A stretch of DNA of 64,000 bases from Streptomyces sp. NBC_01788 (GTDB lineage Bacteria > Actinomycetota > Actinomycetes > Streptomycetales > Streptomycetaceae): contig NZ_CP109090.1 of NCBI RefSeq assembly GCF_035917575.1, positions 1,054,001 through 1,118,000 of the forward strand, written 5' to 3'. The notes under the pieces are model-generated. The model saw only the letters and a list, made by a program, of their open reading frames with translations. It searched no databases and was not told the DNA's origin. Shown here piece by piece: positions 2,405-16,483 of the stretch. Both the position numbers and the translations under genes were made by a program. How positions within the stretch are numbered: the stretch's first letter is position 1; every line of letters begins with the position of its first letter.

Positions 2405-4216
2405 TCACACGTTGGGGTGGCGACCCCGGTCGCGATGGGTGGGGAGGAATTCCTGGACCTTGGCTTTGAAGCCCTGGCGGACCACCGCCGCACGGTCCGT
2501 GTCGCCCTTGAGGACGGCGGTCGCGGCGGCCTCGATCTGGTCGAGGGTGGCGTGCGGCGGGATGGGCGGTACGGCCGGATCGGTCACGAAGTCCAGCACG
2601 CAGGGCCGGTCCGTCGCGAGGGCGGCCTCCCACGCCCCCGTCACCTCGCCGGGCTTCTCTATCCGGATGGCCTCCAGACCGAGCGAGCGGGCGAAGTCGG
2701 CGTAGGCGACGTCGGGGATGGACTGCGACGGCAGGAACTGCGGTGCGCCCTCCATGGCACGCATCTCCCAGGTCACCTGGTTCAGGTCCCGGTTGTTGAG
2801 GACGGCGACGATCAGTCGCGGATCGGCCCAGTCCCGCCAGTACTTGGCGACGGTGATCAGCTCGGCCATGCCGTTCATCTGCATCGCCCCGTCGCCGACC
2901 AGGGCGATCGCCGGCCGGTCGCCGTGCGCGAACTTCGCGCCGATGGCGTACGGCACACCGGGCCCCATGGTGGCGAGGGTGCCCGACAGCGAACCGCGCA
3001 TGGCACCGCGCAGCTTGAGGTGGCGGGCGTACCAGTTGGCGGCGGACCCGGAGTCCGCGGCCAGGATGGCGTTGTCGGGGAGCAGGTCGTTCAGCGCGTG
3101 GGCGACGTACTCGGGGTTGATGGGGTCGGCCTCGACGGCCGCGCGCCGCCGCATGACCTCCCACCAGTCCGCGGTGTCCCGCTCGATCTTCTGGCGCCAG
3201 CCGTGCTCCCGGGCCACCTTGAGCGACGGCAGCAGCCGGCGCAGCGTCACGGCGGCGTCCCCGACCAGGTTGACCTCGAAGGGGTAGCGCAGGCCGATCA
3301 TGTGGGGGTCGATGTCGATCTGCACGGCCCGCGCCTGGCCGAACTCGGGCAGGAACTGCGTGTACGGGAAGCTGGAGCCGACGACCAGGAGCGTGTCGCA
3401 GTCCCGCATCATCTCGTACGAGGGGCGGGTGCCGAGCAGCCCGATCGCGCCGGTGACGTAGGGCAGTTCGTCGTCGAGGGCGTCCTTGCCCAGCAGTGCC
3501 TTGGCAACGCCGGCGCCGAGGTGTTCGGCGACCTGCATGACCTCCTGCCGTGCGCCGCGGGCGCCCTGGCCGACGAGGATCGCGGGCCTCTGCCCGGAGT
3601 TGAGGACCTCCGCCGCCCGGGCGAGAGCCTCCTCGGAGGGCACCGGCGCGTAGTAGGACATGCCCAGGCTGGACGGCACCATCTTGAAGGCGTGCTCGGG
3701 CGGCGAGTAGTCGAGTTCCTGCACGTCGGCGGGGATGATGACGGCCGTCACCGAACGCCGGGCCAGGGCGGTGCGCATGGCGCGGTCGAGCACGTTGGGC
3801 AGTTGCTCGGGGACGGTGACCGTCTCGCAGAAGTCGGAGGCGACGTCCTTGTAGAGGGCCGGCAGGTCGACCTCCTGCTGGTAGGAGCCGCCCATGGCGC
3901 TGCGGTTGGTCTGGCCGACGACGGCGACCACGGGCACGTGGTCCAGTTTGGCGTCGTACAGGCCGTTGAGCAGGTGGATGGCCCCGGGCCCCGAGGTGGC
4001 CGCGCACACGCCCGGTTTGCCGGAGAACTTGGCGTAGCCGACCGCTTCGAAGGCGGCCATCTCCTCGTGCCGGGCCTGGATGAACCTCGGCCGGTTGTCG
4101 GCCCGGCCCCACGCGGCGAGCAGGCCGTTGATGCCGTCGCCGGGGTAGGCGAAGACGTACTCCACCTCCCACTCGCGCAGGCGCTGGAGAAGGTAGTCGG
4201 AGACCTTGATGGACAT
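2405..4216 (-). CDS. Pyruvate-oxidase-like thiamine pyrophosphate enzyme
   Basis: A 603-residue TPP-dependent enzyme of the pyruvate oxidase/acetolactate synthase superfamily, the usual length. The N-terminal PYR domain has the cofactor-activating glutamate in QARHEEMAAF (Glu51/52) and the SGPG loop (75-78). A central domain spans about 190-330. The C-terminal PP domain carries the TPP motif GDG (441-443) ending in NN (474-475). It most resembles the PoxB group, which oxidatively decarboxylates pyruvate to acetate and CO2, but the substrate cannot be proven. No C-terminal membrane helix is obvious. It lies 39 bp downstream of the truncated FAD oxidase, probably in one transcript. Confidence 0.85.
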   Translation of the reverse strand: MSIKVSDYLLQRLREWEVEYVFAYPGDGINGLLAAWGRADNRPRFIQARHEEMAAFEAVGYAKFSGKPGVCAATSGPGAIHLLNGLYDAKLDHVPVVAVVGQTNRSAMGGSYQQEVDLPALYKDVASDFCETVTVPEQLPNVLDRAMRTALARRSVTAVIIPADVQELDYSPPEHAFKMVPSSLGMSYYAPVPSEEALARAAEVLNSGQRPAILVGQGARGARQEVMQVAEHLGAGVAKALLGKDALDDELPYVTGAIGLLGTRPSYEMMRDCDTLLVVGSSFPYTQFLPEFGQARAVQIDIDPHMIGLRYPFEVNLVGDAAVTLRRLLPSLKVAREHGWRQKIERDTADWWEVMRRRAAVEADPINPEYVAHALNDLLPDNAILAADSGSAANWYARHLKLRGAMRGSLSGTLATMGPGVPYAIGAKFAHGDRPAIALVGDGAMQMNGMAELITVAKYWRDWADPRLIVAVLNNRDLNQVTWEMRAMEGAPQFLPSQSIPDVAYADFARSLGLEAIRIEKPGEVTGAWEAALATDRPCVLDFVTDPAVPPIPPHATLDQIEAAATAVLKGDTDRAAVVRQGFKAKVQEFLPTHRDRGRHPNV

Positions 4217-4255
4217 GCGGGGAACCTTTCCGGTGGAGCGGAGAGGGTGCGGGGG

Positions 4256-5389
4256 CTAGGGGGCACGGCGCAGGCGGCGCACCGCGCCGCGGCCGGCCGC
4301 TGTCACGGCGGTGGCAGCGAGGGCGGCGGCGACGGCGGTGGCCGTCCGACCGCCGGCCCGTGACGGCTTCGCGGGGCGCCCGCGAGACGTTCGGGCAGGT
4401 GGGCGGGGAGTGCCCCGTCGAGTCCGAGTGCCAGTGCCTCGGCCAGGTGCAGGGCCTCGCGGCCGGTGCCGGAGTTGGCTGGGCTCGCTGTGTTCCAGGA
4501 GGCGCGGGACGTCGTCGGCGGCAGTGCAGATGTCGTCGTACCCGAGGACGAGCAGCGACTGGAACGGCGGTACGGGCACGAGGTCGAGCTCGGCGCGCAG
4601 CACGGTCACGAGGGTGCCCTCGCTGCCCACCAGGGCCCTGGCGACGTCGAAGCCCTTCTCCGGCAGCAGGGAGTCCAGGTTGTAGCCGGAGACGCGGCGC
4701 GGAATGTCCGGGTAGCCGTGACACACGTCCGCGAGGTACTCGGTGATGATGTGGTCGAGGCCGGCGTGGATCTCGGCCCTGCGGCCGCCCTCCTCCGCGA
4801 TTCGCTCCCGCTCGGCCTTCGGGGTGGGCCCCACCCACATCCGTGTGCCGTCGTAGGTGAGGATCTCCAGGCGGCGTACGTTGTCCACGGTCTTGCCGTA
4901 CGCCTGCGCGGAGGCGCCGCAGGAGTTGTTGCCGATCATTCCGCCCAGCGCACGGTGGGTGTGCGTCGACGGCTTGGGCCCGAACTGGAGTCGGGGGCCG
5001 GACAGTCGGCGGTTGAGCTCGTCCAGGACGATCCCCGGCTCCACGACGCAGGTGCGGGCGCCGGGATCGACCGACACGAGCCGGTGGCAGTACTTCGTCC
5101 AGTCGACGATCACCGCCGCGTTGGTCGCCTGACCGGCCAGGCTGGTCCCGCCGCCCCGGGACAGGACCGGGGCGCCGAACCGTGCGCACACCTCGACGGC
5201 CCGGGCACCGGACTCGATGTCACGTGGGACGACGACCCCGATCGGGACCTGCCGGTAGTTGGAGCCGTCGGTGGCGTACGCGCCCCTGCTGCCGGCGTCG
5301 AAGCGGACTTCGGCCTCGGTCTCGGCGAGCAGCGCGGCTTCGAGGCCGGCCGCGTTCGACGCGGCCGGCTGCACGGGTGTGGGAGTCAC
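4256..5389 (-). pseudogene. FAD-linked oxidase (FAD plus Fe-S type) with a large internal deletion
   Basis: Residues 1-303 from the GTG at 5389 are a good FAD-binding type-4 domain: PP-loop SRGGGTSLAGQ (78-87), GGMIGNNSCG (149-158), GSEGTL (255-260). After LEHSEPSQ the match stops near base 4480. A different frame (about 4478-4380) then reads NSGTGREALHLAEAL and LPAHLPERLAG, resembling from memory the extreme C-terminus of the ~950-residue FAD plus 4Fe-4S oxidases. The original frame resumes with an Ala/Thr/Arg tail. The simplest explanation is loss of the central ~600 residues, including the Fe-S domain, with frame disruption. The gene starts 13 bp after the small gene upstream and is probably inactive. 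Confidence 0.7.
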
Positions 5390-5402
5390 GGGTGGGCAGG
5401 AG

Positions 5403-5636
5403 TCAGCCGGCGAGCCGGCCGCGGAGCAGTTCCTTGCCCATCTCGGCACCCTTGCGACTGTCGGCCTGCGCCTTGCGGAAGAGTTCGACCAGGTCGGCGT
5501 CGTGCTCGCGCTCGGCGTCGTCGATGTAGGTCTCCAGGCGCAGGGCGTTGCCCAGGCACTCCTCGACGTACCAGAGCAGGTTGTAGTCCTTGTCCAGGGT
5601 GCCGGTGACCTTGCCGGTCTCGGTGTTCCTCGCCAT
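5403..5636 (-). CDS. Small acidic soluble protein, unknown function
   Basis: A 77-residue protein beginning MARNTETGKVTGTLDKDYN. A GGAGGAGAG sequence seven bases upstream selects the ATG at 5636 over one five codons earlier. It is rich in Glu, Asp and Leu and probably helical (ECLGNALRLETYIDDAEREHD, in part), with no signal peptide or membrane segment. I recognise it only as a conserved-looking Streptomyces small protein. It is the first gene of the leftward set running into the FAD oxidase relic and the pyruvate-oxidase-like gene, which suggests, weakly, a stress-related context. Confidence 0.7.
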   Translation of the reverse strand: MARNTETGKVTGTLDKDYNLLWYVEECLGNALRLETYIDDAEREHDADLVELFRKAQADSRKGAEMGKELLRGRLAG

Positions 5637-5959
5637 CACGCTCTCCTCCACCGTCGGAATCCGTGGGGCCGGATGCGCGGCCAGTGATCGTCACGGTCCG
5701 TGGCGCGGTCACTGACCGCGGCCGTCCGCCCCTCGATGACGAGGCCCGAGTGCCCAAGAGCGGCAAGGGGTATGCGATCTCCCGGCCATTGGGGGCGGCC
5801 GTGTTCGCGAGGCCTTGAGGGCGGGCCCTGCGCGGGGCCTGACGCACGGCCTTGCGCGAGGCGCTCCGCCACCGTGGCGCATGACCTCGCGCGGGGGACT
5901 CGCGGGGGACTTCGGCCCCCGCGCGATTCGTACCCAAGACTGGGGGAACCCGGCCCGAC
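5637..5959. other. Divergent intergenic region with a G/C hairpin
   Basis: This 323-bp stretch separates two outward-facing genes and must carry both promoters, though I cannot place a convincing -35/-10 pair. CGCGGGGG at 5901-5908 pairs with CCCCCGCG at 5916-5923 across a 7-nt loop, about 35 bp before the rightward gene. The hairpin could act in the leader of that gene. I see no RNA gene or coding frame here. Confidence 0.4.
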
Positions 5960-6427
5960 ATGATCGGGAGCATGGTGCGTGGTGGCGTGGCCGGTGCCGC
6001 CGGAACGACCGTACTGAACGCCGTGACCTACGCCGACATGGCGTGGCGGGGAAGGCCGGCCAGCCAGGTCCCCGCGCAGGTGGTGGACAAGCTCGCGGAG
6101 GACCTGGGCCATCCGGTCGCCGGACCGGACGACAGCCGGGACAACCGGCTCTCCGGCCTCGGCGCGCTGTCCGGCATCGCCGTGGGCGTCGGCACGGGCA
6201 CGGCCGTCGCGCTGGCCCGTCGGGCGGGGGTCAGGATGCCCTGGTGGCTGGGAGGTGTGGTCACCGGCGCCCTGGCCATGGCCGCGACGGACGTGCCGAT
6301 GGCCCGGCTGGGAGTGAGCGACCCGGCTGACTGGCCGGCCAAGGACTGGCTGTCGGACGCGGTGCCGCACCTGCTGTACGGACTGGTCACCCACGGCCTT
6401 GTGACGGCCGCGGAACGTCGCCCGTGA
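5960..6427 (+). CDS. Small integral membrane protein, unknown function
   Basis: A 155-residue protein with alternating Gly/Ala-rich hydrophobic stretches: VRGGVAGAAGTTVLNAV near the start, LGALSGIAVGVGTGTAVALA in the middle, and WWLGGVVTGALAMAA, giving about three membrane segments. A loop of about 45 residues with DDSRDNR lies between the first two. The start may be ATG 5960 or ATG 5972; neither has a strong ribosome-binding site. It is not assigned to a functional family. It stands divergent from the small acidic gene at 5403-5636 and is followed by a leftward single-span membrane protein. Confidence 0.65.
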   Translation: MIGSMVRGGVAGAAGTTVLNAVTYADMAWRGRPASQVPAQVVDKLAEDLGHPVAGPDDSRDNRLSGLGALSGIAVGVGTGTAVALARRAGVRMPWWLGGVVTGALAMAATDVPMARLGVSDPADWPAKDWLSDAVPHLLYGLVTHGLVTAAERRP

Positions 6428-6441
6428 GCAGGCCGCCCTGC

Positions 6442-6475
6442 GTCAGATGAGCGTCACGGTCAGATGAGCGTCACG
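6442..6475. repeat. 17-bp perfect tandem duplication
   Basis: The 17-mer GTCAGATGAGCGTCACG occurs at 6442-6458 and again directly at 6459-6475. The second copy holds the last codons and stop of the leftward small membrane gene, so the duplication left a spare copy of the gene's 3' end. It looks like a recent replication-slippage event. Confidence 0.9.
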
Positions 6476-6639
6476 AACATGATCACGATCACCACCGCCA
6501 CCACGACGTACAGGACCCAGAAGGACCCGAGCGCACCGTTGCCGGCGGGCTCGCCGCCGCCACCGCGCGGGCGGTCCTCCTCGAGGTCGGGGTTCTCCGG
6601 ACGATCCCGGGTGTAGAAGTCGTCGTCGTCTCCTGCCAT
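6460..6639 (-). CDS. Small acidic single-span membrane protein
   Basis: A 59-residue protein that is easy to miss. It opens with an acidic, charged stretch (MAGDDDDFYTRDRPENPD), passes through a GGGGEPAGNGALGS linker, and ends in one hydrophobic helix (FWVLYVVVAVVIVIMFVTLI, residues 40-59) that stops at the C-terminus. The layout fits a tail-anchored or N-in single-pass membrane protein. AAGGAG lies 10 bp upstream of the ATG. Third-position G/C bias supports coding. Function is unknown. Its stop codon is in the second copy of the 17-bp tandem repeat. Confidence 0.7.
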   Translation of the reverse strand: MAGDDDDFYTRDRPENPDLEEDRPRGGGGEPAGNGALGSFWVLYVVVAVVIVIMFVTLI

Positions 6640-6771
6640 GAGCCCATCACTCCTTCACCTTCACCGGGAGGCCTTCCGAGTACCCGGTCCACCGGCCGCC
6701 GCACCGGTTCGCCACGGCCGGAAAGCGGTGCTCCGTCCGGCGTAGGCTGGAGGCCTGCCCAGGAGGACACC

Positions 6772-7272
6772 ATGGAGTTCGACGTGATCGTGGAGATCCC
6801 CCAGGGGTCCCGGAACAAGTACGAGATGGATCACGAACTGCACCGCATCCGGCTGGACCGGCTGCTGTTCACCTCCACCCAGTATCCGGCGGACTACGGC
6901 TACATCGACGGCACCCTGGGGCGTGACGGCGACCCGCTGGACGCGCTCGTGCTGACCGGCGAGCCGACGTTCCCCGGCTGCCTCGTCGAGTGCCGGGCGG
7001 TGGGCATGTTCGCCATGAAGGACGAGCGCGGCCCCGACGAGAAGATCCTCTGCGTGCCCGCCCACGATCCCCGGTACGCGGGCGTGCAGGACATCGACGA
7101 CATCTCCCTCTTCGACCGGCTGGAGATCACCCACTTCTTCGAGGTGTACAAGGACCTGGAACCCGGCAAGTCCGTCGAGGGCTCGCACTGGGAGTGCCGC
7201 GAGCAGGCCTACGCGGAGATCGACGCCTCCCGCGCCCGTGCCACCGGCGGGCACACGCCGGTCCACAGCTGA
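6772..7272 (+). CDS. ppa: Inorganic pyrophosphatase, family I
   Basis: A cytosolic enzyme that hydrolyses pyrophosphate to two phosphates and so drives nucleotide and polymer synthesis. The 166-residue length suits bacterial family I enzymes. The Mg-binding signature DGDPLDALVL is present at about 49-58. Further conserved segments are IPQGSRNKYE near the start, DYGYIDGT, KIL...VPAHDPR and HFFEVYKDLEPGK. AGGAGG five bases before the ATG fixes the start. It is a monocistronic-looking gene, closed by a strong hairpin 30 bp after its stop. Confidence 0.96.
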   Translation: MEFDVIVEIPQGSRNKYEMDHELHRIRLDRLLFTSTQYPADYGYIDGTLGRDGDPLDALVLTGEPTFPGCLVECRAVGMFAMKDERGPDEKILCVPAHDPRYAGVQDIDDISLFDRLEITHFFEVYKDLEPGKSVEGSHWECREQAYAEIDASRARATGGHTPVHS

Positions 7273-7302
7273 CGGGACTGCGGAACCCCATCGCCGGCCG
7301 GC

Positions 7303-7339
7303 GCCCGCGCGCTTGATGTACCGCCGTCAACGCGCGGGC
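7303..7339 (+). terminator. Hairpin terminator after ppa
   Basis: GCCCGCGCGCTTGA (7303-7316) pairs with TCAACGCGCGGGC (7327-7339) with a single bulged base and a 10-nt loop. There is no T-run, as is usual for Streptomyces terminators. It lies 30 bp after the ppa stop. Confidence 0.75.
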
Positions 7340-7477
7340 TCATCGCGTCACGGGGCCGGCAATGCGCGACCCCGAAACGATCCGAACCACTCAGTACGGG
7401 CCATTGACGGATAAAAGCACTTTCACGCCGCCTGCTCATGGCATGTTGACCTCCCTACTTCTCCCCCGGAGGCACAT

Positions 7478-10136
7478 GTGCCCAACTCGCCCGGCCCCAG
7501 GGACTCGACGCCGGGGTACCCCAGGTGGTCGGACCGTCTGATACGCCAGCTGGATGCCTTCGCGGCCAGAAGGTCAGGGGCCGAGAGGGTGCCCGCCCTG
7601 GTGCTCAGCAGACAGGACGGCGGTGATGCCACATGGCCCGCCTTCATGATCCGGGAGTACGAGAGCCGACTGGCACGAGGCCACGGCAACGCGCGCTGGC
7701 GGGTGCCGCATGCGGTCGTCGACGACGCGGAACCGATCGACGGCTTCCTCCCGGCGATCGACCATGTGGCACGGACGTTCCAGCGCACCATGCCCTCGGG
7801 GCATCTACGGCTGCGGGCCTTCCACACGTGCCGGGCCGTACTGGAAGCGGAACGCGGCGCGGGAGACGTCCAGGCCGAGCAGCAGCCCATCGTCGAGACC
7901 CTCTACGCGGAAATGCTGCAGAGGCGGAGGTCGCTGCGCGCCGGCGCGTACGTGGCGGACTTCCTGGGTCAGCATGCTCTGACCGGCTGGCTCCAAGGAC
8001 TCGTCGCCGCCGTGATCGTCGGCCTTCCCAAGCTGTGTTACCGGTTCCATCTGCGGCACTGGGGCCTGCGCTGGGTGGCCGGCGAATGCAACCGGCGCAG
8101 CTTCCTGGACGCCGCGCTCGACTTCTGCCGTGACGGCGAACTGGGTCGCGAGGACCAGCGCGTGCGGCGCATCCTGTTGCGGGCGCTCCTGACCGACCTG
8201 CGCAGGGCGACCCGGGGCAGGACCTGGCTGAGTCACCTGCGGGACCGGCGCCGGTGGTCCTTCGTCGTTCTCATCCCGGAGATCGACGACCCGGACGGCC
8301 CCGGTCGGGCGTTCCTCGGCACCTTCGAGGAACTGGCCGGCGACCATCCGACCAGGCCGCTGCTCGTCCTGGCCGCCTGCGCGGGCCCACCGCCGGACTA
8401 CGCCATCCCGCTCGACGCCGACCTCGACCGGCCGAACGGCATCGCCGACAAGGTCTGCACCGTCCTCGGCGAAGACAGTGCCGAGCCCGTACGCCTCGTC
8501 ACGCTGCCGGCCGCGGACGACTCGGACGGTACGGCGAAGTACAAGATCGAGAACGGTCCGGGAGTCATGGCCCGCAAGGACCACCCCCTGGACTGGCTCC
8601 GTCCGTCGGTCCTGCCCGTCGTGGGCGTGGCGACCGCGGGACTCCTGCTGGCCCCGAGCCACCCCTGGTCCCCACCGGTCGGCGCGCCTCCCTCGTGCCT
8701 GACCGTGGGGACCGGTGAGCGGGTGGGTGTCACCGACGGCGAGCAATGCCATCTGGGCGTGCCGGGAGACCGCGGGCAGGAACTGCGGGACCTGGAGCAT
8801 CGGGTTGCCGTGGAGAACGCCCGGATTCCCGACGGGCCGTACCGCACCTTGGTCTTTCTCGCTCCCCTGAGTCTGCAGGACGGTGTGTACGACGATCCGC
8901 CGCTCGGACTGCAGATCCTGCGCGGCGTGATCGCCCAGCAGCACAAGCTGAACTCCGGTGTCCGCCAGAACAAGATGCCGATCCGCCTGCTCATCGCCAA
9001 CACCGGCCAGTACTTCCAGTACGGCGCCCACAACGCCGCGGCGCCGAAGAACCCGGACGTCGCGCAGATGATCATCGACCGGCAGCGCACGGACCACATC
9101 GCGGCGGTCATCGGCATCACGCAGAGCCGTCCCGAGTCGTTGAAGGCGGTCCAGGAGTTCGACCGTGCCGGGACTCCCGTCGTCGCGAGCGGCGTCTCCG
9201 GCAGCACCATGGTCGGACCCGACTCCCCGCAGCGCTACTTCCAGATCTCGGCGCCCGACACACGCCTGGGTCCGATCCTCGCGGACTTCATCCGCCGCTC
9301 CCCCGAGATTCACCGCCTCACCAGCGACAGGCCCCACGCCGTCGTCGTCTATGACCCGACCGACACCTCCTTCAGCACGGACCTGAGGAACGTCTTCGTA
9401 CGCGCCTACCGTGCGCACGGCGACATCGACGGGGTCACCTACAGCGAGAAGCCCGGCGCGACCACGCCGGACAGCATCGCCACCGACGTGTGCAACAAGG
9501 TCACCGCGACCCACGGCATCGTCGTCTACCTGGCACGGTCCGGAGTACTGCCCAGTCTTCTCAACGCCATGCGGAGTGCCGGTGGCCAGTGCCAGCCACC
9601 GGCGGGAACGACCATTCCCCTGATCTCGGAAAGCGCCCCCCTCGACTTCCAGCTCCGTCCGGCGGAGACGCGCCTACCCGTACATGAATCTCTTCTACGA
9701 GACGACGAACGCCCCCACGCGGGACCCCCGGGATCCCTACGCGCAGTTCACCCAGGACTTCGCCGACGTCTTCGACCACCACAGCGCCGACGCGGACGCG
9801 GCCAGCGGATTCGACAGCGTGGGCATCGTCTCCAAGGTCGTCGAGAACCTCCTGCCCGCCTCCCCCGACGTCCAGCCCAACGACATCTACCTGTGGCTCA
9901 CCGCCCATGGCGTGTCCCAGTACCCCGGCGCGTCGGGCGTGCTGCAACTGGACGCCAGGAACAAGTTCCCACCCGACAAGGCCGTCTACATCCGTGAGAT
10001 CGCCCAGCCGGGCGGCGCCACGACGACACTGCTCAGCTGCGGAATCCTGCCCGACCGGCAGGACCCCGAGAAGTGGGGCACCCCGCCCGACACCTTCCCC
10101 TGCCTCCGCGAGGACACCCGGTCACCGTCCGGCTGA
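7478..10136 (+). pseudogene. ATPase-like domain fused to a periplasmic-binding domain, frameshifted
   Basis: Two overlapping frames make one protein of about 885 residues. The GTG at 7478 has GGAGG five bases upstream. Residues 1-375 look cytoplasmic and ATPase-like: ALVLSRQDGGDATWP (40-54) sits where a P-loop would be but lacks GxxxxGK[ST], and FVVLIPEIDD (262-271) resembles Walker B. One membrane helix follows (about 376-393). The rest resembles a type-1 periplasmic-binding protein (AVIGITQS, GTPVVASGVSG, YFQISAPDTRLG). Near 9671 the frame shifts: residue 731 continues as AYPYMNLFYETTN in the next frame, as one extra base would cause. Role unknown; a membrane sensor is possible. Confidence 0.6.
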
Positions 10137-10192
10137 GGGACCCCCGGCCGTCACCGGGCACGGAGCATGCCGTCCCGCAGACGGGCCAGGAG

Positions 10193-10212
10193 CCTCGTGA
10201 TCAGGCACGAGG
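10193..10212. terminator. Short hairpin between convergent genes
   Basis: CCTCGTG (10193-10199) pairs with CACGAGG (10206-10212) over a 6-nt loop. It lies between the ends of two converging genes and includes the stop codon of the MFS gene. It may serve transcription from both sides, but the stem is only 7 bp. Confidence 0.4.
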
Positions 10213-11478
10213 ACGTGACGTGGTGGGGCCGTGGCGGCGGCCGCGTACGGCGACGGCCGCGAGCAGCGCGAGGACGACGACGGAGAACCACGTCGTCGCG
10301 TCGGACAGGTTCATGGCGCTGCTGGCGGCGCCCAGGCCGACGGGAAGCAGCGCCAGGCCGAAGTAGGAGGCGAGGAACAGACCGGCCAGGGCCTCGCCGC
10401 ACCGGGCCGGCGCAGCCGCGTCGGCGACCTGTTCGACGGCGGACTTGAACAGCAGGCCGGCGCCCGCTCCGGCGATGATCCCGGCGAGCAGGAACAGAGG
10501 CAGGCTGACGAGGCGGATACCGGCCGTGAGGACGGCCATGCCCACGGCCTGGGCGAGCAGCCCGGCGTACCAGCGTGTGCGGGCGCGGAGCCGGCCGGTG
10601 CCCGTCTGGGCAGCCGCCGCGGCCGCGAACACCGCGGAGACGACCAGTCCGGCGAGTGCCCGGGACGGGTGGTGCAGGGTGCCGCCGACGAAGCCGGGCA
10701 CCACCGAGGTGAACAGGCCGAACACGGCCATGGAGGTGAAACCGGCCGCGGCGGGGGCGAGGAATCCGGGGTCGCGGAGGGCGGTCCCGGCCCGCTGCGG
10801 GTGGTAGGCGGGCCTGACCGCGGGCTTGGTGACGGTCTCGGGCATCAGCGCGACGGCGGCCGCCCCGGCCACCAGCAGCACGACGAAGACCGCGTACGGC
10901 AGCCGGAGCGGCGCACCGAAGTACTGGGCGAGCACTCCCGCGGCGACGGGCCCGAGGCCGAGTCCGCCGATGTTGGCCGCGGTCGAAACGATCTCGAACC
11001 TCCGTGCCGAGGTGCCGGGCCGGTGGGCGCTGTGCAGCTCCTGGAGGTACGCGGTGGCGGTCGCCGTCAGCATGCCGACGCCGAGACCGGTGACCAGCCG
11101 GGCTGCGATCAGTACGGGCAGGGCCGTGGCGGACAGGAACAGGACGGCGGCGAGCAGTTCGAGTCCCAGCGCCGCCGCCATGACCTTCTTGCGGCCCAGC
11201 CAGTCCGATACGTGCCCGGCGAGCAGCAGGCTGATCAGCACTCCGACCGCGTAGACGGCGAACACGACGGTGACCGTGAACGTGGAGAACCCGTCGTGGG
11301 CCTTGTACACGGGATACAGCGGGGTGGGAACGGTGGAGAACGCCATGGCCGTCACGAACACCGCGGCGACCGTCCAGAACCCCGCACCGTACCGGAGTAC
11401 GGAGTTCGGGCGCCCGCCCTCTCCGGTCCTTTCCTCGGACGCGCGGCCCGTACGCGGACCCGTCGACGTCAGCGGCAT
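10201..11478 (-). CDS. Major facilitator superfamily transporter
   Basis: A 425-residue, 12-helix permease. After a hydrophilic N-terminus of about 35 residues, the first helix and the loop 2-3 signature GHVSDWLGRKKVMAAAL are clear, followed by RLVTGLGVGMLTATATAYL. Helices continue to the C-terminal LSDATTWFSVVVLALLAAVAV. This is the layout of sugar-efflux or drug-efflux MFS proteins, but no substrate can be read. The ATG at 11478 has GGGAG seven bases upstream; upstream in-frame codons have poor third-position G/C, so longer starts are rejected. It converges on the ATPase-like/binding-protein gene. Confidence 0.85.
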   Translation of the reverse strand: MPLTSTGPRTGRASEERTGEGGRPNSVLRYGAGFWTVAAVFVTAMAFSTVPTPLYPVYKAHDGFSTFTVTVVFAVYAVGVLISLLLAGHVSDWLGRKKVMAAALGLELLAAVLFLSATALPVLIAARLVTGLGVGMLTATATAYLQELHSAHRPGTSARRFEIVSTAANIGGLGLGPVAAGVLAQYFGAPLRLPYAVFVVLLVAGAAAVALMPETVTKPAVRPAYHPQRAGTALRDPGFLAPAAAGFTSMAVFGLFTSVVPGFVGGTLHHPSRALAGLVVSAVFAAAAAAQTGTGRLRARTRWYAGLLAQAVGMAVLTAGIRLVSLPLFLLAGIIAGAGAGLLFKSAVEQVADAAAPARCGEALAGLFLASYFGLALLPVGLGAASSAMNLSDATTWFSVVVLALLAAVAVRGRRHGPTTSRPRA

Positions 11479-11653
11479 CGGAGAACTCCCATCCTCGACG
11501 GTGGATTCCGTCGGCGGTGGGACCGGCCCGGCCCGTCGTTCACCGCCTGCTTGTGCCAACAGGCGAGCGGAGACGTTTTTTCCCATGCGCGGGGATTGCG
11601 TGGAGAGTTTCCAAGAAGATGACTGTTCATCCAGGAATCCTTGGTGGGCCACG

Positions 11654-12808
11654 TCAGGCAGCGCCGTGCACCCGATGGCTGAGGTGCAGACCGCTGTGCG
11701 GCGCGGTGGTGCGCCGGATGGCGAGGAGGGCGGCGTCGTCACCGAGAGCGCCGTCGGCGTGGGCGAGAAGATCCTGTTCCACGTGCTGCACCAGGGTCCT
11801 GGGGCCGCACCTGGCCCACTGGGCGATCCGTTCCTCCAGCGGGTAGAAGGCCCGGCTGCTGTCGCGGGCCTCCACCACACCGTCGGTGTAGAGGAGCAGC
11901 GTGTCACCGGGCCGGAACGAGAAGGCGTGCGTGTCGTAGGCGCCCGGCCGCAGCCCCGACATGCCCAGCGGAGGCGCCGGGCGGGGACTCGTCAGCGAGA
12001 CGACGTGCCCCTGCCTGATCAGGAAGGGCGGCGGGTGCCCGCAGTGGACGACCCGGGCCACGGGGCCGTGCTCGGGGATCTCCAGCAGCAGCGCGGTGAT
12101 GAAGTGCTCCTGGACTTCCCCGTCGGCTTCCGGGAATTCGGTGAGGTACCGGCAGACGCTGCGGTCCAGGGCCTCCGCGAGGGCGGGCAGCGTGGGGTAG
12201 TGGTGGGCGGCCTCCTGGAACGAGCCGAGCAGCGTGGCCGCCTCTCCGATCGCGGCCAGCCCTTTCCCCCGTACGTCACCGACGATCACCCGTGTACGGT
12301 CACCGGTGCGCGCCACCGCGTACAGGTCGCCGCCGATGCACGCCTCCTTCTCGGCGGCCAGGTACGAGCAGGCGATGTGCAGGCCGCCGAGATGGTCGGG
12401 CAGCGGGCGGAGCAGGGCTCGCTGGGCGGCCTCGGAGACGGACCGCACCTGGGCCAGTTCCGCCTTCCGCCGGTCCCGGAAGAAGCACACGACCATGCAG
12501 AAGGCCGTGAGGATCGTGAGCGCGATGAGCTGCGAGATGTGGTTGGGGGCGGTCATTCCCCCGTGGAGCATGGCGAGGAGCACCTGCGCCCCCACCGCAA
12601 GGGCCCCGATCAGCCCGGTCAGCAGGTAGCCGCCGAACGAGGTGGTGAGGGCGGGGGCCACGACGAGCAGTGGGCCGAGGTGGACTGATTCCGGCGAGTG
12701 GATGTCCGCCAGGGTGATCGCGACGATCAGCACCAGCGGAATCGCCACCAAGGCGCGCCGCGACCGCCACGGCTGCAGCGGCCGGGCGAGGCGCTGCCGG
12801 ATGTGCAT
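11654..12808 (-). CDS. Membrane-anchored SpoIIE/PP2C-type serine phosphatase
   Basis: A 384-residue protein with an N-terminal membrane module of about four helices (about 20-110), a short coiled linker (RDRRKAELAQVRSVSEAAQR), and a C-terminal PP2C/SpoIIE domain. The metal-binding residues are in CIGGDLYAV (158-165), IVGDVRGKG (175-183), LLYTDGVVEARD and LGDDAALLAI. Enzymes of this class dephosphorylate anti-sigma-factor antagonists in partner-switching pathways. The start could be ATG 12808 or ATG 12826; a GGAGGA lies 14 bases before the latter. It is divergent from the MerR-type regulator. Confidence 0.88.
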   Translation of the reverse strand: MHIRQRLARPLQPWRSRRALVAIPLVLIVAITLADIHSPESVHLGPLLVVAPALTTSFGGYLLTGLIGALAVGAQVLLAMLHGGMTAPNHISQLIALTILTAFCMVVCFFRDRRKAELAQVRSVSEAAQRALLRPLPDHLGGLHIACSYLAAEKEACIGGDLYAVARTGDRTRVIVGDVRGKGLAAIGEAATLLGSFQEAAHHYPTLPALAEALDRSVCRYLTEFPEADGEVQEHFITALLLEIPEHGPVARVVHCGHPPPFLIRQGHVVSLTSPRPAPPLGMSGLRPGAYDTHAFSFRPGDTLLLYTDGVVEARDSSRAFYPLEERIAQWARCGPRTLVQHVEQDLLAHADGALGDDAALLAIRRTTAPHSGLHLSHRVHGAA

Positions 12809-12914
12809 GGTTCCAATGTGCCCCATCCGAGTCGAACAGTTCCTCCGGAGATCACCGCCATACTGGATAGTCGCGCGATCCGTTGTCCCGTTCATCCCGT
12901 GAGTGAGTGAATCG

Positions 12915-13622
12915 ATGAAGATCTCGGAACTCAGCCGACGCAGTGGGGTGACCATCCCCACGATCAAGTACTACCTGCGGGACGGGCTGCTGCCCCCGGG
13001 CCACGCGACGGCCGCCAACCAGGCCGTCTACGACGAGGACCACCTGCGTCGGCTCCGGCTGATCCGCACCCTGATCAGCGTGCGGCACCTGTCGGTCAGC
13101 GCGACGAAGGAGATTCTGTCGGCGATCACTCACGAGGGCGACCTGCATCAGATCCTCGGGATCGTGATCAACGCCCGTCCCGCCGCGCTCACGGCCGAGG
13201 AGGAGCAGTCGCAGCAGCCCGCGCCGCCCGGCGCCGCCGACGCGCTCCGGCTGGTGGCCGAGATGGGGTGGGACGTGGAGGAGAAGACGTCCGCGATCGG
13301 GGAGCTGGGCGGCGTGCTGGCCGCCCTCGCCGACCTGGGGGCGGGCATCGACTGGCGGACGCTGCTGCCGTACGCCGAGCTGGTCGACAAGATGTCGAAG
13401 CTCGACCTGGAGCAGCTCAACGGCTTGTCCGGCCCGCTGGAGCAGGCCGAACGCGCCGTGGTGGTGACCGTCCTCCTGGAGCCCGCCCTGCTCGCCCTGC
13501 GCCGCCTCGCCCAGGAGGACAAGTCCGGGCGCCTGTTCGGAACCACCACGTGCGACCAGGAACAAGCGCGGCCGGAGCACGGCAAGCCGGGCCCCCACGG
13601 CCCCGGCCGGTCGAGCGACTGA
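12915..13622 (+). CDS. MerR-family transcriptional regulator
   Basis: A 235-residue regulator. The N-terminal winged helix-turn-helix reads MKISELSRRSGVTIPTIKYY with LRDGLLPPG, the standard MerR recognition module, and an effector domain of about 160 residues follows. No cysteine cluster of the metal-sensing type is seen. Its only evident cysteine is in the Pro/Gly-rich tail, which looks disordered. A GTG start at 12903, four codons earlier, is equally possible. It is transcribed away from the membrane phosphatase across about 100 bp, so it may control both. Confidence 0.88.
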   Translation: MKISELSRRSGVTIPTIKYYLRDGLLPPGHATAANQAVYDEDHLRRLRLIRTLISVRHLSVSATKEILSAITHEGDLHQILGIVINARPAALTAEEEQSQQPAPPGAADALRLVAEMGWDVEEKTSAIGELGGVLAALADLGAGIDWRTLLPYAELVDKMSKLDLEQLNGLSGPLEQAERAVVVTVLLEPALLALRRLAQEDKSGRLFGTTTCDQEQARPEHGKPGPHGPGRSSD

Positions 13623-13647
13623 CCGGGGGCCCGTCAGGCGGCCGTGC

Positions 13648-14082
13648 TCACGCCGAGCGGTCTTCGGAGCGGCGGTCCCGCGAGGCGGCGCCCCGCCGCC
13701 GGTAGGCGCCCGGGCTGACGCCGAACTCGCGCTTGAGAGCGCGGTTGAAGGCGACCTCGGAGCGGTAGCCCACGCGCTCGGCGACGCTCTGGAGCGGTGC
13801 GTCGTCGTCGCTGCGGAGGATCCGGCCGGCCGTGGTCATCCGCCACCAGCTCAGGCGTTGAGCGCGACGCGCCGGCCCACCGTCCGCGGAAGGTGGATCA
13901 AGGCGGGGAGCTCGGCGAGCAACGGGTGGGCGCCGGCCCGGTCGAGCTGGTTCTCCGAGGTCTCCCAAGTCCCCGCTGTGGTAGAGGTCCTCCACGAGCC
14001 GGAGTGCCTCCCGGGGGCCGTCGGGACGGGAGATGTCGACGGCGGCCAGGAGCCGCCGGAGTCGGAGGGGCGTCGTCACCAT
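13648..14082 (-). pseudogene. AraC-family regulator relic with internal deletion
   Basis: The C-terminal part is a recognisable second half of an AraC DNA-binding domain: LSWWRMTTAGRIL, PLQSVAERVGYRSEVAFNRA and KREFGVSPGAYRRRG. Upstream, another frame reads LDRAGAHPLLAELPALIHLP, the typical mid-part of cupin-type AraC proteins, and ends at a stop. The first helix-turn-helix, the cupin barrel and most of the ~300-residue length are missing. The frame joining these pieces starts at ATG 14082. This is best read as a gene broken by a frameshift and at least one deletion, with no function expected. Confidence 0.75.
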
Positions 14083-14224
14083 GTCGCTCCGGGGACGGGT
14101 GAGTTCAGCGCGCGGTGGCCGGGGGCCCGGCGTCGTGACATTCACGGTCTCATGGAGTCGCCGCGCATACGCCCAAACTGCGCCGATCCCCTGCATATGA
14201 GGCTGACCTGCGTGTTCCTCCCGT

Positions 14225-16483
14225 GTGCCGGCATCCGCCGGCACCCGCGGCCTCCCTCACCGTCCGCTCCCCCGGCAGCCGGCGGTGCGGCGGTCGTCGG
14301 ACGGCTTCGGGGGAAGCTGCGGGGCGGCCGGTCCGGAGGGACGATGGACGTGTCGGCCGGAACGGGCCGGACCAGCACGAGAGCCCCGCCGCGGTGGGCG
14401 TGTCGCCGAATCCGTCCGGACCGACCTCGGACCGGTCGGGGGCTTCCCCTCGCTGCCGGGCGCTCTCCTGGACGTCCTGAATCTCGCCGCGGTGGTCCTG
14501 GACACGGACGGGAAGATCATCTGGTGGAGCCCGCAGGCGGCGCAGCTGTTCGACTACACCGCGGAGGAGGCCCTGGGCCGGTCCGCGCGCCGGCTGCTGG
14601 TCGACGGCAAGCACCTGGAGCAGGTGACGGGCCTGTTCGCCCGGGTGAGGGCGCAGGAGGGGGCGGCGGGGGTCTTCCCCGCCCGGCACAAGGACGGCAG
14701 CACGCGGCTGATGGAGTGCCACAGCGTGCAGCTCCAGGGAGAGCGCGGTGAGCACTGCAGGCTCGGCGTGATCACGGAGCACGAGATCCTGCAACGCGTG
14801 CAGCGGGACCTCGCCCTGTCCTCGCAGCTGATCGCCCAGTCCCCGATCGGGCCTGCGGTCCTGGACACGGACCTGCGGTACATCGTGGTCAACCCGGCCC
14901 TGGAGCGCATCAACGGAGTGCCTGCCCGGGACCATGTCGGCCGCACCGTCCGCCAGGTCCTCACTTTCCTGGACGCGGACCCCATCGAGTCCGCGATGCG
15001 GCAGGTGCTGACCACGGGCACACCGGTACTGGCCCAGGTCGTCGTCACCCCCACCCCTTCCGACCCCGGCCGGGACCACTCGTGGTCGGCCTCGTACTAC
15101 CGGATGGAGGACGCCGCCGGGCGGGTGCTGGGCCTGGCCGTGTCGCTGGTGGACATCACCGAGCAGCATCTCGCGGCCACCGAGGCCATCGCGGCGCGGC
15201 AGCGCCTGGCCCGCATCGCCGACGCCTCCGCGTGCATCGGCACCACCCTCGATCTGGACACCACCGCCGGAGAACTGGCCGAGATGTGCGTGCCGGCCCT
15301 GGCGGACCTGGCCGCGGTCGACGTGCTCGACGCCGTTCTGGAGGGCAAGGGCCCCTCCAAGGTGCTTTCCGGCGGCGGCGACCTCCTCTTCCGCGCCCTC
15401 GCGGTGGCAGCGGCCTATCCCACACCCGCCACCGGCGCCGCCGACCGCGCCGGCCAGATCGCCCGCTACGGCCCCGACCGTCTGGTCACCCAATGCGCGG
15501 CCTCCGGGCGCCCCCTGCTCGTCCCCCACGTGGACAGCGCGGACCTGGGCCGCATCGCCGCCGACCAGAGCGCGGCCACGGTTCTGGCCCGCGCCGGGGT
15601 GCACTCCTATCTGGCGGTGCCCATGATCGTGCGCGGCCGGGTGCTCGGCGTCCTGGACCTGGCGCGCGCCCGCAACCCGGTCCCGTTCAACGGCGACGAC
15701 GTACTCCTGGCCGTCGAACTGGCCGCCCGCGCCGCGGTGTGCATCGACCACGCGCTGTGGTACCAGCAGCAGCGGCAGACCGCCGAGACCCTCCAGCGCA
15801 GCCTGCTGCCGCTGCGACCGCCCCACCGGCCCGGCCTGGAGATCGCCTGCCGCTACCGGGCCGCCGGAGCCGCCTACGAGGTCGGCGGCGACTGGTACGA
15901 CGTCGTCCCGCTGCCCGGCGGAAAGACCGCCCTGGTGATCGGCGACGTCATGGGCAGCGGCATAGACGCCGCCGCCACCATGGGCCAACTGCGCACCGCC
16001 ACGCGCACCCTGGCCACGCTCGACCTCGACCCCGCCGCCCTCCTCCAGCACCTGGACCGCACGACCTCGGACCTCGACCACCGCTTCGCCACCTGCGTCT
16101 ACGCCGTGCACGACCCGCACCGGTCCCGCTGCCACCTCTCCTCCGCCGGCCATCTGCCGCCGGTCCTGATCCGCCGGGACCGCGCACCCGCACTGCTGGA
16201 CCTGCCCACCGGCGCGCCCCTCGGCGTCGGGGGCGTCTCCTTCAGGTCCACCTGCATCGCGCTGTCCCCCGGGGACCGGCTGGCGCTCTACACCGACGGC
16301 CTGGTCGAGGTGCGTGACCAGGCCCTCGACACCCGGCTCGAGGCGCTGCTCGACCGGCTTGCCGGTCCCCAGCCCCCGCTGGAGGACACCTGCGATCTGC
16401 TGCTGGACGCCTTGCACCACCCCGACTCCCACGACGACGTCGCGCTGCTGATCGCCCGCGTCCGCCAGGCCTGCCCCCAGTGA
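14225..16483 (+). CDS. PAS-PAS-GAF-SpoIIE/PP2C phosphatase
   Basis: A soluble multi-domain signalling phosphatase of up to 752 residues. Order: PAS (about 80-195, with VVLDTDGKIIWWSP), PAS (about 205-320, AVLDTDLRYIVVNPALERIN), GAF (about 335-515, HSYLAVPMIVRGRVLGVLDL), and PP2C (about 530-750: YEVGGDWYDVV, IGDVMGSGIDAAA, LYTDGLVEVRD, HDDVALLIAR). It should dephosphorylate an anti-sigma antagonist in response to ligands sensed by PAS/GAF. The first ~75 residues from GTG 14225 are of low quality, so the true start may be an internal GTG. No transmembrane segment is seen. Confidence 0.85.
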   Translation: MPASAGTRGLPHRPLPRQPAVRRSSDGFGGSCGAAGPEGRWTCRPERAGPAREPRRGGRVAESVRTDLGPVGGFPSLPGALLDVLNLAAVVLDTDGKIIWWSPQAAQLFDYTAEEALGRSARRLLVDGKHLEQVTGLFARVRAQEGAAGVFPARHKDGSTRLMECHSVQLQGERGEHCRLGVITEHEILQRVQRDLALSSQLIAQSPIGPAVLDTDLRYIVVNPALERINGVPARDHVGRTVRQVLTFLDADPIESAMRQVLTTGTPVLAQVVVTPTPSDPGRDHSWSASYYRMEDAAGRVLGLAVSLVDITEQHLAATEAIAARQRLARIADASACIGTTLDLDTTAGELAEMCVPALADLAAVDVLDAVLEGKGPSKVLSGGGDLLFRALAVAAAYPTPATGAADRAGQIARYGPDRLVTQCAASGRPLLVPHVDSADLGRIAADQSAATVLARAGVHSYLAVPMIVRGRVLGVLDLARARNPVPFNGDDVLLAVELAARAAVCIDHALWYQQQRQTAETLQRSLLPLRPPHRPGLEIACRYRAAGAAYEVGGDWYDVVPLPGGKTALVIGDVMGSGIDAAATMGQLRTATRTLATLDLDPAALLQHLDRTTSDLDHRFATCVYAVHDPHRSRCHLSSAGHLPPVLIRRDRAPALLDLPTGAPLGVGGVSFRSTCIALSPGDRLALYTDGLVEVRDQALDTRLEALLDRLAGPQPPLEDTCDLLLDALHHPDSHDDVALLIARVRQACPQ

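Follow-up and report, generated by a model that had tools for sequence, protein, structure and literature searches.

The gene that begins at position 7478 of the 64,000-nucleotide stretch analyzed here (the window; G000:C1:1054001-1118000, part of the 8.27 Mb chromosome of Streptomyces sp. NBC_01788) belongs to an unnamed family of modular receptors. Elsewhere in that family, a P-loop ATPase either lies just upstream of a sensor, composed of a membrane helix and a binding domain, or is fused to it. We place it there because its relatives reveal a loss of ATPase motifs, a pairing of the sensor with separate ATPases, fusions that retain the P-loop, and the replacement of the ATPase-like part by TIR, EAD1, DUF4062, or kinase domains. 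On balance, we think that the gene codes for a membrane receptor in one piece, or did so until recently, and that the AAA+/STAND-type half of this receptor would act independently of ATP. The following features were found in the gene:

7468–7472 (+): GGAGG, probable ribosome-binding site by sequence reading, with the GTG start five bases further on
7478–9670 (+): first coding part, about 731 residues in the first frame, containing the pseudo-ATPase, the membrane helix, and most of the binding domain
7478–8596 (+): AAA+/STAND-like domain with no working Walker motifs, residues 1–373
7595–7630 (+): strand 1 with the loop ALVLSRQDGGDA where a P-loop would lie, residues 40–51, from an alignment with 29 separate ATPases and the secondary structure of the model
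7979–8035 (+): weaker second hydrophobic stretch within the ATPase-like domain, residues 168–186 (hydropathy 1.47; helix 170–195 in the model)
8261–8284 (+): FVVLIPEI, the Walker B strand, residues 262–269, with Pro267 (8276–8278) at the position of the ATPase Asp, from the alignment and the model
8597–8653 (+): membrane helix, residues 374–392 (hydropathy 1.64)
8696–9670 (+): type I periplasmic-binding-protein domain, residues 407 to about 731, first frame (profile match to 3td9, 4gnr, and 3hut; 400.6 bits with the sensor profile)
9665–9675 (+): frame break, a short deletion in the alignment with three relatives; intact copies exist elsewhere
9672–10136 (+): last part of the binding domain, read in a different frame, with its stop at 10134–10136 (separate match to the homologue profile, E 8.0e-86)

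The initial annotation had described an ATPase-like half joined to a periplasmic-binding-like half, and both parts of this description held. The model of the N-terminal domain (predicted local distance difference test score 84) resembles AAA+/STAND ATPases, including the defence ATPases RdrA and BrxC, in a fold comparison that leaves room for families outside its match list; a fold of residues 1–375 unrelated to P-loop NTPases, which would have told against the annotation, is not what the model shows. The profile of the N-terminal domain is related to ATPases, most of which carry Walker motifs (hhalign, E 1.3e-14), and the domain has both the homology and the core fold of the AAA+/STAND class. 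Neither the single window sequence nor the N-terminal profile has a relevant match in the PDB, NCBIfam gives no match, and AAA_16 is found in just one of 20 fused members (E 0.065).

The C-terminal half is homologous to type I periplasmic-binding proteins. A profile of 20 full-length members (A2) matches the binding proteins of amino-acid importers, branched-chain ones among them (3td9, E 6.4e-7; 4gnr, 1.9e-6; 3hut, 3.5e-5), and Pfam detects ANF_receptor in six and Peripla_BP_6 in two of these 20. The window protein alone finds no binding-protein chain in the PDB. When the full-length family profile is run against its own genome, the window gene is the sole match (89 candidates scored, E up to 1).

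Between the two halves, the hydrophobic segment at residues 374–392 is likely to cross the membrane. A single membrane helix, as initially claimed, is likely, although the weaker stretch at residues 168–186 is also present. Hydropathy at the corresponding place peaks at 1.2 or above in 67/93 fused proteins and 13/29 separate ATPases and does not separate the two classes. In the sites noted (window 7979–8035; L021, L049, L050, L056, L068), the stretch is weak in the window and of membrane-hairpin length in some sub-clades. The putative orientation, with the binding domain outside the cell and the ATPase-like half inside, comes from basic residues that precede the helix and conserved cysteines that follow it.

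This order of domains had been called unusual; we find instead that it is one state of a family present in many Streptomyces genomes. A protein database search lists 38 homologues (E <= 0.001), of which 35 are 810–913 aa long, and these together with the homologues found in genomes rule out a singleton oddity. Wider searches found little: the near-clade profile matched 4/296 genomes of the phylum (three candidates scored per genome) and the N-terminal profile 4/79 genomes of the class; plasmids gave a single weak match, in Embleya. Across 101 Streptomyces genomes, the ATPase profile matches 83 and the sensor profile 81. We kept 75 ATPase matches, those above 100 bits with a single second gene piece set aside, along with 118 sensor matches; weaker rows and second pieces were dropped. 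Of the 75 ATPase matches, 71 are followed closely by a sensor match in the same orientation, with 27–207 bases between the ends of the two matches in 69 pairs and 322 and 758 in the other two. At least one pair occurs in 57 of the genomes, and only four ATPases have no partner, one of them at a contig edge.

The remaining 47 sensor matches have no separate ATPase, and 44 of these lie in open frames of at least 800 codons, like the fused proteins; some of the 44 were inspected, and one of them, G095:C6, has no ATPase-like half. The initial annotation had held that homologues split into two genes within a transporter operon would tell against a one-piece sensor. Homologues are indeed split into two genes, but the partner is an ATPase rather than a transporter operon. 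Three split pairs have kinase genes near them, of which one is truncated where its stretch ends, and these kinase genes do not match the sensor profile. Both genes of the two-gene form, an AAA_16-type ATPase followed by a gene for a transmembrane helix and periplasmic-binding-protein domain (TM-PBP), are homologous to the corresponding halves of the window protein; the pair differs in being two genes and in the [AG]xxxxGK[ST] motif that 17 of the 29 ATPases compared (each at least 640 aa) retain.

As initially noted, GxxxxGK[ST] is absent from the N-terminal half of the window protein, and FVVLIPEI does occupy the place of Walker B, though with Pro in place of the Asp of the separate ATPases. 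After removal of duplicates, the fused set held 97 proteins, 93 of them at least 800 aa long. None of the 97 has GxxxxGK[ST] before the binding domain; a GxxxxGR[ST] string occurs elsewhere in three and a lone GKS outside the site in one. The place of the P-loop is visible in the alignment of the 93 except for P0020, where the region is absent, and none has a P-loop there; nine retain the Walker B Asp that is Pro267 in the window. The Asp is present in all 29 separate ATPases. Among the 12 of these that depart from the Walker A motif, one has Arg for Lys, one has Gly as the last residue, and ten have GPxGSGAS, so that erosion of the P-loop extends to separate ATPases too. In the ten with GPxGSGAS (L103, L128-L132, L140-L142, L145), the Walker B sequence LLLLDN is intact.

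A database search with one separate ATPase also recovered four proteins of 1132–1188 aa (P0075-P0078) that each keep Walker A intact and carry LVLLDN together with this binding domain in a single chain; therefore the fused order exists with a P-loop as well. The comparison proposed in the initial annotation, in which retention of the motif by homologues would mark a degenerate copy and its general absence a new domain, thus gave a split answer: 0/93 full-length members of the window class against 17/29 separate ATPases and the four long fused proteins. This result points neither to a degenerate copy standing alone nor to a domain of unrelated origin but to a branch of an ATPase family that has no P-loop, and the idea that no relative has a P-loop is rejected by the relatives that keep it. 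Members of the window class are shorter, typically about 850–960 aa, and from lengths and alignments they appear to have lost, along with the motifs, the helical part that comes after the core in the ATPases.

The sensor is also joined to cytoplasmic domains of other kinds. With three candidates scored in each genome, its profile has matches in 44/246 genomes of the class; the weakest matches may be ordinary binding proteins. We scanned nine fetched sensor proteins, with sensor scores of 60–298 bits, against Pfam and found the following arrangements:

L195, 1528–5034 (+): TIR, protein kinase, and sensor in a single chain of 1169 aa, Pfam above cut-off
L180: protein kinase and sensor, Pfam above cut-off
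L176 and L188: TIR and sensor, Pfam above cut-off
L177, 1378–5040 (-): TIR above cut-off, sub-threshold NB-ARC/AAA_16, membrane helix, and sensor in a 1221-aa frame
L186: EAD1 and sensor, Pfam above cut-off
L175 and L178: DUF4062 and sensor, Pfam above cut-off

The layout of L177 is like that of a plant TIR-NB-ARC receptor with an outer sensor. At L196, 1797–4349 (-), the same sensor lies behind an N-terminus that looks helix-turn-helix-like by eye and is unconfirmed by Pfam.

In a tree of 113 sensor domains, from which seven long or unsure rows were dropped and near-identical fused rows thinned, a branch with a Shimodaira–Hasegawa-like approximate likelihood ratio test (SH-aLRT) support of 99 has the separate pairs, the long fused proteins, and L195 on one side; on the opposite side are the P-loop-less fused proteins together with L175, L176, L177, L180, and L186. 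A first tree of 128 rows required two changes of label; L073 and P0043, labelled separate, proved fused by eye, and L035 has another N-terminus; in a tree of 121 rows, with seven dropped, one branch parts separate from fused. These trees are quick, long-branched, and unrooted. We infer that the P-loop was lost rather than gained.

Taken together, these observations suggest how the receptor may work. The extracytoplasmic type I binding domain would close its lobes on a small ligand, and the single helix would pass this closure to the cytoplasmic AAA+/STAND-type domain. Lacking the Walker residues, this domain may be an ATP-free scaffold or adaptor for a partner encoded elsewhere; in members with a P-loop, the inner domain would be a nucleotide-driven switch. 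The TIR, EAD1, and kinase domains found in the place of the pseudo-ATPase in relatives support a role as adaptor or output. The earlier reading of a one-piece sensor rather than a transporter part fits the ATPase-like half, the helix, and the binding half, while sensing itself is what we infer from them. Most named homologues carry transporter-part labels; should they in fact be receptors, the actinomycetes, makers of many antibiotics, have a class of small-molecule sensors with ATPase, TIR, and kinase outputs. The series from separate ATPase to fused ATPase to fused pseudo-ATPase would make the role of an ATP-free STAND-type domain directly testable.

Whether the window copy still makes such a receptor is an even bet, given that it may be a dead gene whose function, if any, resides in its relatives. 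The long frame opened by GTG at 7478 was borne out, with GGAGG preceding it. The span 7478–10136, however, is not one open frame as annotated but two frames joined: the frame from 7478 ends at a stop at 9997, having run out of register with homologues past about 9670, and the conserved remainder lies in another frame from about 9672 to 10136. The frame break near 9670 had been overlooked; we analyzed the copy as found, with frames neither mended nor joined. A syntenic copy in Streptomyces sp. CB01373 (L075), with the same pyrophosphatase and MFS-type neighbors, is a single frame of 887 aa.

The ratio of replacing to silent changes between the window and CB01373 is 0.57 for residues 1–370 (16 + 10 changes) and 0.90 for residues 371–730 (26 + 10 changes), both above the value of 0.31 between CB01373 and S. 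alanosinicus, which counts in favor of a dead gene. After the break the ratio is 0.19, though this rests on eight changes (3 + 5). The counts are small throughout and fit several causes: a lesion of recent date, relaxed constraint, rapid change in the binding cleft, or an error in the sequence. Also on the side of a dead gene, genome G117 keeps only a short relic (L116 6547-7041, minus strand), a 164-aa frame that preserves just the first 129 residues of the fused protein at 88% identity. Programmed frameshifting near 9670 is left open, with the single-frame relatives speaking against it.

A nutrient or developmental sensor is a tentative possibility. The binding domain is related to amino-acid binding proteins, kinase fusions exist (L180, L195), and there is a precedent in Corynebacterium, where the binding protein GlnH acts through GlnX on the kinase PknG, as described in the accessible part of PMC9769921. 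GlnH itself, however, stands as a protein of its own and, according to the same source, belongs to a different Pfam family, SBP_bac_3.

Possible to a similar degree is a broader view, that the TM-PBP sensor is the extracellular-sensing branch of actinomycete signaling akin to that of nucleotide-binding leucine-rich-repeat receptors (NLR), wired to separate STAND-type ATPases, to TIR, TIR-NB-ARC, EAD1, DUF4062, and kinase domains, and, in a fused class that is widespread, to the P-loop-less ATPase as an adaptor independent of nucleotide. The narrower proposal that the window family is the outward arm of an NLR-like immune or cell-death pathway, in which the ligand would come from attack or from neighbors and the pseudo-ATPase would recruit an effector, seems to us rather unlikely; it would give the receptor a purpose and no different mechanism. 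It draws on the fusions to TIR, to TIR with sub-threshold NB-ARC, to EAD1, and to DUF4062, on the pairing with AAA_16-like ATPases, on RdrA and BrxC among the fold matches, and on the TM-PBP tail of a conflict system mentioned in the accessible part of Kaur et al. 2020. Against it, the sensor is fused to kinases too, no effector gene was recognized beside the window gene among the scanned neighbors, and PADLOC was silent on the nine proteins tried, bar a weak mad8 match (E 0.0028) to the L103 ATPase.

It is improbable that the altered loop binds nucleotide in some unusual manner. Although near-clade members conserve the RQDGGD loop well, it is shorter than a P-loop and has no Lys, the Walker B Asp is replaced, and the residues at the loop differ in other sub-clades.

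By Pfam, the ten scanned neighbors of the gene (2405–16483) are a thiamine pyrophosphate enzyme, a flavin adenine dinucleotide (FAD)-binding protein, an inorganic pyrophosphatase (upstream), a major facilitator superfamily (MFS) transporter (downstream, on the opposite strand), a pair of SpoIIE phosphatases, regulators of the MerR and AraC types, and two proteins that Pfam does not match. As the initial annotation stated, no permease or ATP-binding cassette (ABC) ATPase adjoins the gene among these ten. The SpoIIE-type phosphatases lie at 11657–12961 (-) and 14225–16480 (+), one with PAS and GAF domains, near the MerR- and AraC-type regulators. In the FAD_binding_4 protein at 4256–5449 (-), the C-terminal end resembles sequence read out of frame, which may mark another frame break in the assembly. 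Gene maps of fused relatives, read by eye in ten genome stretches and four named loci, reveal no shared partner except in CB01373.

The public names of homologues and the homology to 3td9 would make the protein an ABC-importer substrate-binding protein. This is very improbable: its binding domain is fused to a cytoplasmic domain, Peripla_BP_6 has no match in the window gene while detecting three other proteins of the same genome over its cut-off, the ten scanned neighbors include no ABC genes, and the gene surroundings of six split pairs, mapped by eye, vary, with ABC-transporter-like genes upstream solely at L103. A transporter subunit was rejected on the Peripla_BP_6 and neighborhood results, and a sensor is probably the more fitting role.

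Compared with known systems, the window protein shares the homology of its binding domain with LivJ-type ABC importer binding proteins and differs from them in being membrane-anchored, fused, and without importer genes among its scanned neighbors. With GlnH-GlnX-PknG it shares the principle of an outer binding protein that reports to an inner signaling protein; there, the parts are three separate proteins. We recognized no description of an ATPase or pseudo-ATPase with TM-PBP in the literature searched, mostly at listing level and with subscription journals thinly covered; the accessible parts of PMC13118837 and PMC4886424 hold nothing on such an architecture, and the nearest statement is a remark on caspase-TM-PBP proteins in PMC7159879.

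That remark concerns an actinobacterial two-gene membrane conflict system, in which the caspase protein sometimes ends in transmembrane helices and an outer periplasmic-binding-protein domain. Like the window family, it is actinobacterial and combines a cytoplasmic conflict-type domain, a transmembrane helix, and an outer binding domain; the likeness of the tails is one of description. The part that stays constant there is a caspase or cyclase, accompanied by EACC1 as a separate gene, whereas that of the window family is an ATPase or pseudo-ATPase. Pfam reported no caspase or cyclase domain at the locus; no dedicated model was used to look for EACC1. The other likeness is to the inactive STAND modules (iSTAND, iSTAND2) of the MoxR-vWA ternary systems (Kaur et al. 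2020, 2021; PMC7159879, PMC8195603), to which PMC8195603 adds more inactive forms. In the accessible parts of these papers, these too are STAND-type ATPase domains with eroded NTP-binding motifs and a proposed role as scaffold or sensor; the window domain differs in being joined, by way of a membrane helix, with a binding domain outside the cell and in having no MoxR or vWA partner genes among the ten scanned neighbors. To the extent that these sources could be compared, the inactive STAND modules and the TM-PBP tail of the conflict system are the closest printed precedents for the window protein.
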